64,000 nucleotides of DNA, taken from contig JADQAV010000044.1 of NCBI GenBank assembly GCA_019775845.1, positions 1 through 64,000 on the forward strand, written 5' to 3'. Below the pieces are notes generated by a model. It ran no database searches. It was not told the DNA's origin and saw only the letters and a program-made list of their open reading frames with translations. Shown here in pieces: positions 30,554-35,168 of this stretch (the first letter of the stretch is position 1; every line of letters begins with the position of its first letter). Source of the stretch: Myrmaecium sp. VS I D KN 1 (taxonomy: Eukaryota; Ascomycota; Dothideomycetes; Valsariales; Valsariaceae). The translations under genes and the position numbers were made by a program.

Positions 30554-31888
30554 TGATGCTGCAGCATCAGATGCGATAGCCCCCAGTCAAGTAATGAGAT
30601 CATTTCTGGTCACTGCCTCGATATGTCCGCGCGGTTGATCATGCATGCGGCCTTGGGCTGTCTCCTATTCCAGCTCTCGTTGATCATGAGACTGTGAGGA
30701 CCGCCTGCGCTGCTCCGGGCAGTCATTGTTAGTCCAGTCATACCCTGGCGACGCTTTGGAATCCAGTGCAGCGCCGGAAAGCCCATAACTTGAGAGGCAT
30801 GATGATTCTCTCGACGGGTGAAACTATATCTAATTCATGCGGCTTCGCGGCACCACAGTCGCCAACGAGCGGGTCCCGTCCGCCGCAGTCCTTGTCCAAT
30901 TCTAAGTTCCCTGGGTCCCGCCTTGACATGTCTACGGAGAGCGGCTCGAGGCTTGCTTACGGAACCCAAATCTCAGTACTGGATGTGCTAGCATTGGTCC
31001 AAGGGCGATATAAGCTGCCATTGAGTATTTATCCTATGCTTAGCTTGACCGATAAAAGCTGTGGTCATGGCATGTCTCTATCACAGGTCTTGGTCTTTAG
31101 GAGTCTTCCACAGGGTAAAGCACCCTCAAGCCCGACGGCATGGGTAGTTTGCTGGGTCGAGGTCGCATGCCTTAGAGCTACCCACAGAGAAGGATGTATC
31201 AGCAGCTCCATTATGATAACAATTTCTTTTATGTGTAAACAGATAGAGCTCGCTTCTTGCCAAGAGCTTTGCAAAAAGGACCATCAGTCAAAGATGTTCA
31301 AGAACTACTCCGTACTCTGAGCTTCTATATTCTGCCCAGACGGCGTTCCAGTGGTCTTCGGCAGAGAAGAGACTCCAATAAATCCGTATACTACCATGAT
31401 GACAATCGCTCATGTTCATATGAATCTTCGCAACTGACAAACGCCCCGAATACATAGTCCACGATCAGAAAGTCCCACGGAGTCGACGTGGCCGAGGTCA
31501 CCAAAAGCTGATCAGTGCCCGGGCATCTCTGCATCTGGAACGGAGATCATCTGGCCTTCCGTGCCTACAGGTCACTGCAAATTTTGTAGACATCGCATCT
31601 TATGCCTAGTTCTAAAACGCATTTACTCAGAAATGCATGCGCAGGCGCTTTTTTGGCAGTATTTTGGTGGCGACTTTTCGTTGTGCCTATTTGTGTTGGC
31701 CTTGCCGAAGCTCGAAAGGTTCGTGGTGCGAAGGACTCGCTTACGGAGGTGGCCCTAGCGCACCCGATTTTTGGCAGTCGCACACTCCGCCCATCTTCTA
31801 TCAAGAGACCGCCGACATTGGAAGTTCAACCCCTCAACGTCCTCCCTTCCATCACCAGTACCGTGCAAGCAGGCAAGGTATAGCAAAA
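30554..31888. other. Intergenic upstream of cpcB/RACK1
   Basis: No gene seen. It should hold the tfb5 3' UTR and the promoter and leader of the RACK1 gene. Base composition is more AT-rich than the flanking genes; short frames are not protein-like. Confidence 0.45.
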
Positions 31889-33198
31889 ATGGCCGAGCAA
31901 TTGGTTCTCCGCGGTACCCTCGAGGGTCACAACGGCTGGGTTACCTGCCTGGCTACCTCTCTCGAGAAGTATGTCCTGCCGACGAAGAAAAGATCCTCAG
32001 GATCGCACACCTCCAGAGCGAGAGCATCATGGCTAATGACCAGATAGCCCCAACATGCTTCTGTCCGGTTCCCGCGACAAGACTCTCATCATCTGGAACC
32101 TTACCCGTGATGAGACCGCCTACGGCTACCCCAAGCGCAGCCTCCACGGTCACTCCCACATCGTCTCCGACTGTGTATGTTCCTTTCCGACGGAGAAAGC
32201 AGAAAATTTCAGGCGAAGGCGAACAAAGTGCTGATGATAGTGAAGGTGATCTCCTCCGACGGTGCCTACGCTCTCTCTTCTTCCTGGGACAAGACTCTCC
32301 GCCTCTGGGAGCTCTCCACCGGTGTCACCACCAGGCGCTTCGTCGGCCACGAGAAGGACGTCCTCTCCGTTTCTTTCTCCGCCGACAACCGCCAGATCGT
32401 CTCCGGTTCCCGCGACAAGACCATCAAGCTCTGGAACACTCTTGGTGACTGCAAGTACACCATCACCGACAAGGGCCACTCCGAGTGGGTTTCTTGTGTC
32501 AGGTTCTCCCCGAACCCCCAGAACCCCGTCATCGTCTCCGCTGGCTGGGACAAGATGGTCAAGGTGCGTTCCCACTTCGTTTGCGCCGTTCTGGCGCTTC
32601 ACCATTCCCCCGACATCACATGATGCTATGCAACCTAAAGTATTTGCTACTTCAGAGCCTTTTGGCTATGAGACCAACCTTCACCAAAGCACTGATCTGT
32701 CTTATCTTCAATCGCACGTTCTACGCCATATTATCTGGCATTTGAACAACTCTTCTAACGCCAATATAATAGGTTTGGGAGCTCGCCACCTGCCGTATCC
32801 AGACCGACCACATCGGTCACACCGGTTATATCAACACCGTCACCATCTCCCCTGACGGTTCTCTCTGCGCCTCTGGTGGTAAGGATGGTACCACCATGCT
32901 CTGGGACCTTAACGAGTCCAAGCACCTCTACTCCCTCAGCGCTGGTGACGAGATCCACGCTCTTGTCTTCTCCCCCAACCGCTACTGGTTGTGCGCTGCT
33001 ACCGCTAGCAGCATCATCATCTTCGACCTCGAGAAGAAGAGCAAGGTTGATGAGCTCAAGCCCGAGTTCCTCGACGTTGGCAAGAAGAGCCGCGAGCCCG
33101 AGTGTGTCTCCCTCGCCTGGTCCGCCGACGGCCAGACTCTCTTCGCCGGTTACACCGACAACAAGATTCGCTGCTGGGGTGTTATGGCTAGGGCATAA
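31889..33198 (+). CDS. cpcB: RACK1/CpcB, ribosome-associated Gbeta-like WD40 protein
   Basis: Four exons: 31889-31968, 32048-32174, 32246-32563, 32773-33198; 316 residues, exactly the family length. Introns are 79, 71 and 209 nt. The protein is a seven-bladed WD40 propeller: [88 protein letters not shown] and [14 protein letters not shown] each carry the GH..WD pattern. RACK1 binds the head of the 40S subunit near the mRNA exit site and acts in translation control and signalling; in Aspergillus and Neurospora the orthologue (CpcB/CPC-2) is also needed for cross-pathway control and development. The third intron is unusually long for this window and encodes a snoRNA (next entry), as the yeast orthologue ASC1 does. 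Confidence 0.97.
32612..32701 (+). ncRNA. snR24: U24 (snR24-type) C/D box snoRNA inside RACK1 intron 3
   Basis: Within the 209-nt intron all parts of a C/D box snoRNA occur in order: box C ATGATGC (32620-32626), first guide TATTTGCTAC (32641-32650), box D'-like CAGA (32653-32656), box C' ATGAGAC (32668-32674), second guide TCACCAA (32681-32687) and box D CTGA (32692-32695). GACA (32612-32615) and TGTC (32698-32701) can close a terminal stem. The two guides are complementary to TTGGTG and GTAGCAAATA, neighbouring segments of the 25S rRNA site that U24 methylates (yeast 25S positions near 1437, 1449 and 1450, from memory). In yeast, snR24 lies in the intron of ASC1, the RACK1 orthologue, so host gene and guide RNA both match. 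The ends are estimates; processing would be by debranching and exonuclease trimming. Confidence 0.92.
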
Positions 33199-33745
33199 AC
33201 GGGTTAAAGGGGTTCTCAGGAGGTTGTTGCATCTTGCGTGCTGGAACGTGAACAAAAGCTTGTCATGTGCTACGAAAAGGGATATGGAAGGGACGACCAT
33301 TTCCGGCGCATATGCTTGAAAGCTCAGCTGAGGCTGCACTGCCTTTGTGCACATTTGAGGGTAAACTGTAACTTCGGCCGGCGCTATCCAAGTGAATTCA
33401 ATACAATTCAATATCCTGTTCTTCCAAGGTGATGTCCAGCCCTTGGGGTGAATTCATTCATATACCTCGATCGTATGTGAGGAGTTGCATTTATCAAGTA
33501 CATTTTTCCTCTTGATTCCAAATCTTCCTGATCAAGACTCGTGCTCCGTTCGTGATTTGTTTTAAAGCCCTCCTCACTACACGCTTATGCGCCCTAATCT
33601 TACAATGGTACATCCTGTCGGATTCTGCCCGTCCGTCCGTCCGCCTGATTTTCAAGTGCCTTCAGGAAATATCCCCTAACCTGCCCGCTGCGATGGAAAA
33701 CGAAGAAGAAAAGATCTCCCACCATCCGCTATGATCCCACCCTCC
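33199..33745. other. Intergenic between convergent RACK1 and Mgr3-like genes
   Basis: No gene seen. It should hold the 3' UTRs of both genes. Confidence 0.5.
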
Positions 33746-35168
33746 TCACTTCCCCCCACCCTTCCCTTTCACCCTCTCCAACGCCTCCCGCGCATTCGCC
33801 TCGCCCTCGGCAAATCCAGCGGCGGCAGCAAGACGGGCGGCATCGGCGTACCGACGCCGGGCCTCGGCGAGGTCGCCGGCCATCTCGGCGAACTCGCCCA
33901 GGTTGTGGGTGGCGACGGCGCAGCCGAGGTCGCACTCTTCGTCGCGAGAGGCGGCGGGGACGGTGCGGGCGAGGTCGAGGGCTTTGCGGGCCCAGCGGGT
34001 GGCTTGGGTGAGGAGGATGGCGCGGCTGGGGGGTTGGGGGGAGGTTGGGTCTGTGAAGGGGGAGGACGGGGAGGCGAGGATGCTGGATGGGGGATGTTGT
34101 TGGGCGAGGGAGATGGAGAGGTTGTTCATGAGGACGACTTGGTGGCAGGTGTTGGGGGGGCAGAGGTTGAGGGCTTGGAGGAAGAGCGGGGTGGCGAGGT
34201 AGTGTTGGTCTTTGGATTCGTAGTTGTGCGCGAGGGCTGGGGTGGGAAGAGGTTAGTTGAGCTTGTGTGTGTGTGGTACAGGAGTGGGGGGAGGATGATG
34301 AGGACGTACATTCGAGGGTCATGCCGATTTCCTCGTCGGTCATCCAGGGCCCTTCGCTGGGCTTCACGCCCTCGACCGTCCGGCGTTGCTTCTCCTTCAG
34401 CGCGCTTTCGACCGCCCAGATCAGACGTTCCTCCGCCAGGTCCGGCGCGCCGAGATGTTCGGCATACAGCTCGCCGAGCTTCACGCTGATGGCGATCGCC
34501 TTCGCCAGCACCTTCGTCCGCTGACCGTCCTCATGGTGCGCCGGCCCCCGTTCCTCCAGCCAGCGCAGGCAGTCCTTGCGCACGATCTCCAGCACCTCGC
34601 TGGCGCGCTTGTAGTTCTGGACCTTCTCGAACAGGGCGGCGATCTGGATCTTGACGCCGAGGATCTCGTCGCTGAAGGGGTCCATGCCGACCTCGTCGGC
34701 GACCTCGATGGCTTGCCGGTAGTACCGGAGCGCCTCCTTGACGTCGAGCTGGATGATGGTGTAGTAGACGGCCCGGCGAAGCTTCTGCGCCACCGGCTCG
34801 GGGAAGTTGTGGTACTGCGCGACCATGTACTTTTGGTAGACGTACGGCGCGTACAGGAGGACGCCGGAGGCGAAGAGGATGCTGCAGCAAACGAAACGGG
34901 TCAGCGTCGCTGTGTGTGCGGCGGAATGGCGGGTGCCTTACATGACTCCTGCGAGCGGGACCAGGAATGGGTGCTTGCGGCGGAGGTTCTTCAGCTCGAC
35001 CATGGTCGAGGCGTTGCGCGTGCGGGTGCATGGGCGGAGCGGGATGCGCGCCCGCGAGGGCAGCTGTCGGAGGACGCTGACATTGGGATGGGGATGGTGG
35101 AAGCGGACCTGCTGAGACGCACACTGGGAAAGCCGGCCAGCGGCTCGGGGAACGCTTCGAGAGAACAT
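33746..35168 (-). CDS. Mgr3-like mitochondrial inner-membrane TPR protein
   Basis: Three exons: 34942-35168, 34310-34881, 33746-34236; 429 residues. Introns of 60 and 73 nt (GTAAGG...CTGCAG; GTACGT...CTAACC...CCCAG) keep the frame. The N-terminus is Arg/Ser-rich with few acids (MFSRSVPRAAGRLSQCASQQ), a mitochondrial presequence. One membrane segment spans the first junction (FLVPLAGVIILFASGVLLYA), followed by YVYQKYMVAQYHNFPEP. The rest is TPR-type helices: VKEALRYYRQAIEVADEVGM, YKRASEVLEIVRKDCLRW, HYLATPLFLQALNLCPP and AVATHNLGEFAEMAGDL. In yeast Mgr3 with Mgr1 delivers substrates to the i-AAA protease Yme1; the fungal family shares this plan, so an i-AAA adaptor role facing the intermembrane space is likely. 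The gene is divergent from the HMCES gene. Confidence 0.82.

Follow-up and report, generated by a model that had tools for sequence, protein, structure and literature searches.

U24-type snoRNAs in fungi and the RACK1 intron

In yeast, the RACK1 orthologue ASC1 hosts the snoRNA snR24, with a D guide for C1437 of 25S rRNA. Two RNAs are described for Neurospora crassa (PMC2780460): CD50 (26S-Cm1418), which is intergenic, uses a D' guide and has S. pombe U24 as its counterpart, and CD51 (26S-Am1430), which is intronic, 87 nt long, also uses a D' guide and corresponds to S. pombe U24b. The authors of that study discuss the split of U24 in N. crassa and S. pombe. A fungal “atypical snoRNA motif” was reported in 2017 from 52 species, with the boxes AUGAUGY, CUGA, AUGAGAC and CAGA (PMC5640933); it is mostly intronic and mostly found with guanine nucleotide-binding protein genes, including S. 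pombe cpc2. The section on this motif names neither U24 nor U24b nor CD51, and suggests 5.8S, 18S and 28S rRNA as targets without giving sites. In Fusarium graminearum lacking the debranching enzyme, a putative intronic U24, whose host gene is not named in the account, falls and lariats carrying snoRNAs accumulate (PMC9606315). There is no mention of U24, snR24 or RACK1 in PMC3596301, PMC8216456 or PMC5033589, nor of U24, SNORD24 or cpc2 in PMC12309372, and nothing joining RACK1, snoRNA, intron, filamentous fungi and methylation was found in the literature covered, which did not extend to the catalogue “The fungal snoRNAome”. This catalogue (PMC5824354) and a study of A. fumigatus (PMC2377427) may already list the RNA described here.

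The window (the whole stretch of 64 kb analyzed) contains a RACK1 gene with three introns (Table 1). Comparison of its product with PDB sequences at E<=1e-80 gave 53 matches. The top two (679 and 676 bits across residues 1-316) bear the name guanine nucleotide-binding protein (beta-like), and we take them to be the Chaetomium and Neurospora ribosome entries, which would put the mould among the Sordariomycetes; those ranked after them (541 bits) are called RACK1, and a few low-ranked ones are other WD-repeat proteins. A sequence-only reading of this DNA had singled out the third intron as much longer than its siblings, as containing boxes C, D', C' and D in that order, and as belonging to the same host gene as yeast snR24. 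These points hold: the intron has 209 nt versus 79 and 71 nt, boxes C and D lie near the ends of the element with D' and C' inside, and the host gene is shared with yeast, as are TTGCTACTTCAGA and the heptamer TCACCAA. The further claim of that reading, a common host intron, holds at the level of the host gene. The “atypical snoRNA motif” has the same boxes and likewise occurs in introns of RACK1-type genes, and the intron RNA agrees with it in every one of these features.

Table 1. Features of the RACK1 gene and of the box C/D element in its third intron (positions in the window)
Feature	Position	Strand	Remarks
RACK1 host gene CDS	31889..33198	+	316 aa, four exons, three introns
RACK1 intron 1	31969-32047	+	79 nt, GT-AG
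RACK1 intron 2	32175-32245	+	71 nt, GT-AG
RACK1 intron 3	32564..32772	+	209 nt, GT-AG
Box C/D snoRNA, U24b/CD51/U76-like	32612..32701	+	about 90 nt; ends inferred from terminal stem
Terminal stem, 5' side (GACA)	32612..32615	+	
Box C (ATGATGC)	32620..32626	+	
D' guide	32639..32651	+	13 bp (12 Watson-Crick, 1 G-U) to equivalent of yeast 25S 1446-1458
Box D' (CAGA)	32653..32656	+	matches D' consensus of PMC5640933
Small hairpin AGCC-TTTT-GGCT between D' and C'	32656..32667	+	from fold
Box C' (ATGAGAC)	32668..32674	+	matches C' consensus of PMC5640933
TCACCAA, 7-bp D-guide remnant (25S 1438-1444)	32681..32687	+	not in register for C1437; may be an accessory pairing
Box D (CTGA)	32692..32695	+	from sequence
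Terminal stem, 3' side (TGTC)	32698..32701	+	
Branch-point-like CTAAC	32755..32759	+	branch A = 32758, 14 nt before intron 3 end

Box C has C in place of A at its final position, and boxes C' and D' are degenerate. In box C/D RNAs, a terminal stem brings C and D together; here, an internal loop lies between the boxes and the 4-bp GACA/TGTC stem, which folds in the 90-nt stretch, being absent when 149 nt (32564-32712) are folded; the AGCC-TTTT-GGCT hairpin is present in both folds. The folding energy of the element is unremarkable (z -0.23), as is expected of a C/D RNA. The 5' end lies 48 nt past the 5' splice site, inside the main range of 41-60 nt given for N. crassa (PMC2780460), and the branch-point-like A is 57 nt downstream of the 3' end. 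Another small hairpin, GCGCC-GTTCT-GGCGC, was seen in the fold of the intron at 32583-32597, 5' of the snoRNA; it might space or protect the snoRNA, or might arise by chance. With a search pattern composed after the element had been seen, a scan of the 64-kb window on both strands found the ordered C-D'-C'-D arrangement once, and none of 2,000 dinucleotide shuffles of the intron contained it. The search of the genome for a further copy returned only the element itself. Judged by its sequence, the intron RNA appears to be a real C/D snoRNA and is very probably functional.

The D' guide and its predicted 25S target

The guides of box C/D RNAs form helices of some 10-21 bp, with the target nucleotide at position +5 from box D or D'. 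Here, the D' helix has 13 bp and puts the A1449 equivalent at D'+5 and the G1450 equivalent at D'+6, on a conserved eukaryotic segment rather than on the rRNA of this species itself. The yeast numbering was set by taking the C of GATCTT as C1437. Against the 33-nt rRNA segment, the best helix has 12 Watson-Crick pairs, a number reached by 13 of 6,000 shuffles, and TTGCTACTTCAGA (13 nt, guide plus box D') is identical to the printed primer sequence for yeast SNR24. The pattern of guide plus box D', TTTGCTACNNCNGA, was found at 6 places in the genome versus 7 for its backward control, so that alone it is not rare; boxes C, C' and D surround only one of the six, which is the window's own.

The 25S segment of this genome was found at 0 places with two patterns and one DNA query, and the assembly may lack the rDNA. 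The stand-in target came from conserved LSU contigs retrieved by pattern search (one among viral_contigs and three among genome_contigs), all four of which match the eukaryotic LSU rRNA family across the segment. They are identical over the 33 nt of GTGCAGATCTTGGTGGTAGTAGCAAATATTCAA, 26 of which were demanded by the pattern search and are identical by selection. Our reading of the D' guide would require GTAGCAAATA in the 25S gene of this species. The LSU segment is at odds with PMC4848094, which names the last two yeast sites C1449 and C1450. As for the number of sites, the C'/D' motif of yeast U24 alone is reported to have modified a single one in a test RNA, six nucleotides upstream of D' (PMC5389607). 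Eukaryotic rRNA was noticed inside contigs filed as bacterial MAGs or virus (L037, L038, L039 and L034), which is a probable contamination of those records.

The D side and a separate candidate for C1437

The sequence-only reading also had two guides fitting adjacent 25S segments. This stands for the D' guide, with 13 bp in register, but not for TCACCAA, whose 7 bp with 25S 1438-1444 (one G-U) leave an A opposite C1437 and U1438 at D+5. Of 500 shuffles, 448 formed a helix with this segment that had 7 bp or more, 6 or more of them Watson-Crick, and because the shuffles do as well, the match is no evidence of a guide. The D guide for C1437 of yeast snR24, where the D-side stretch in the printed primer pairs over 16 nt including G-U, is broken in the intron RNA. 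A further stretch, GATCTGT (32694-32700), shares bases with box D and can pair with 25S 1431-1437 (one G-U); helices as long as this one are common in shuffles. By its sequence, the former C1437 guide looks as if it had been split in two around box D.

We searched the genome for a C1437 guide elsewhere. The pattern ACCACCAAGATC was found at 12 places versus 2 for the backward control, and no CTGA was seen within a few bases after the guide in these 12 stretches. CACCAAGATCNCTGA, with one mismatch allowed, occurred at 12 places versus 0 for its control; among these, L014 has a box C and a stem, L023 has a box C without a stem and the other 10 have neither. L014:1441-1520 (contig C12 of G000, about 81310-81389) is a separate candidate for a U24-like C/D snoRNA, with a variant box C, ATGATTA, a matching 5-bp stem (TGTCC/GGACA) and the guide CACCAAGATC, itself part of the searched pattern, that forms 10 Watson-Crick bp and places C1437 exactly at D+5. 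ATGATTA had been seen before the pattern for box C was broadened to include it, and L014 was hence chosen with hindsight; a stricter box C was not found in it, in a scan of 6 of the 12 places on one strand. The SNORD24 model matches L014 over its whole length with 29.0 bits (E 0.0042 for a stretch of 261 bases; the gathering cutoff of 41 is not reached), which is independent support for the candidate, albeit with a sub-gathering score and from a stretch picked for its guide. L014 may occupy an intron of a noncoding transcript (possible host intron 1395-1585). Close to it, on the opposite strand, there is a reading frame that we take to be RPL14-like.

Searches of Rfam returned 0 matches at gathering in the entire window and 0 at E<=1 in positions 31500-34000. 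The U24 model had been expected to find the intron, and this failed: SNORD24 (RF00069) is not among the 4 matches listed at E<=10. The best of them, to snR61 (15.1 bits, E 4), was discarded as chance, since a snR61 above the Rfam cutoff occurs elsewhere in the genome (L026, G000:C66:1146117-1146197, 49.7 bits). Because snR61 is found there above cutoff, Rfam does work here for another C/D family; the genome search for snR61 at E<=1 also gave matches in 10 of 14 prokaryote controls, above cutoff in 0 of 14. RF00069, run genome-wide at E<=0.001 with 59 of 3,654 candidates scored, gave 0 matches, so missing L014, and likewise none in the 14 controls. SNORD24 belongs to the same functional lineage as the intron RNA, and its sub-threshold match here is L014. 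Two contigs of the viral collection (L035 and L036) share the letters of the guide and box C'; by tblastn neither is RACK1 (best E 1.8 and 1.9), and Rfam gave 0 matches for both at gathering. Of the claim that annotation misses this RNA, the part that concerns Rfam is borne out, whereas the motif itself is already in print (PMC5640933).

Alternative readings and the half of the U24 family probably represented here

The sequence-only reading took the RNA for a U24 with two guides, like that of yeast, which would methylate C1437, A1449 and G1450. The heptamer directly 5' of box D, complementary to 1438-1444 and present in the D-side stretch of yeast snR24, speaks for it. Against it stand a helix of only 7 bp, one of them G-U, with A opposite C1437 and U1438 at D+5, and a yeast stretch that pairs over 16 nt with G-U included. 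A C1437 guide is also present in the separate candidate L014, and we regard this reading as very unlikely. What can be kept of the U24-type label is the lineage, the C/D class and a good D' guide, but not the two guides. We give even less credence to a decayed relic, no longer made or no longer guiding. The degenerate C' and D', the imperfect terminal stem and the absent Rfam match could be taken that way, but identical deviations make up the published consensus of the motif in 52 species (PMC5640933), and 13 nt of guide and D' are common to yeast. Least probable of all seems the view that the intron is long and its motifs arose by chance, or that it holds an element controlling the splicing of RACK1. 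The GCGCC-GTTCT-GGCGC hairpin would agree with such a role, but the guide sits in the expected register, the box order appeared in none of the shuffles (with the pattern composed after the fact), and work on the A. nidulans relative saw the spliced product alone (PMC5640933, as data not shown).

Our preferred reading, with a probability of about 0.87, is a box C/D snoRNA of U24 descent, encoded in an intron, that would be specialized to one guide, for A1449 and possibly G1450, with C1437 served elsewhere. The better label for it is the U24b/N. crassa CD51/U76 half of the family, in that its D' guide fits the A1449 equivalent while the C1437 guide is found in another RNA (the candidate L014). 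The likeness to N. crassa CD51, S. pombe U24b and human U76 is one of described features: CD51 has a single D' guide (13/0), is intronic and measures 87 nt, and its Am1430 sits 12 nt after Cm1418, just as A1449 sits 12 nt after C1437. The arrangement in two RNAs matches the U24 split described in Neurospora and S. pombe, with the difference that the C1437 guide of L014 precedes box D whereas CD50 uses a D' guide.

The host gene, the box order, the D' pairing with its register and a second candidate with a C1437 guide can be read directly from the DNA. From there, the pre-mRNA of RACK1 would be spliced and the lariat debranched and trimmed to an RNA of about 90 nt within a snoRNP, presumably expressed and assembled with fibrillarin; box C/D snoRNAs in general are stable RNAs bound by fibrillarin, Nop56, Nop58 and Snu13. 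By its pairing and register, the D' guide would direct fibrillarin to methylate the A1449 equivalent of 25S, and G1450 might also be targeted through the unusual C'/D' motif. The former D-side guide would have decayed to 7 bp and lost its function, C1437 being most likely handled by another U24-like snoRNA that is encoded elsewhere.

A tentative and rather unlikely extension is that TCACCAA was retained as an accessory pairing. The RNA would then bind 25S 1438-1444 and 1446-1458 at once, strengthening or shifting the modification of A1449/G1450, with the sister gene serving C1437. Extra pairing is reported to stimulate methylation in other snoRNAs and to shape the target choice of snR13, with no role for U18 (PMC5389607), and simultaneous binding through both sites may occur in dual-element snoRNAs, Arabidopsis U24 among them (PMC8053127). 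If true, the accessory heptamer would make visible a stage at which a two-guide snoRNA is splitting.

The intron RNA is another case of an already known kind of fungal snoRNA; the gain is chiefly one of annotation, and the biology is conventional. On the preferred reading, the “atypical snoRNA motif” of PMC5640933 would thereby be tied to the U24/U24b/CD51 family, and this would be a genome where both halves of a split U24 can be pointed at.
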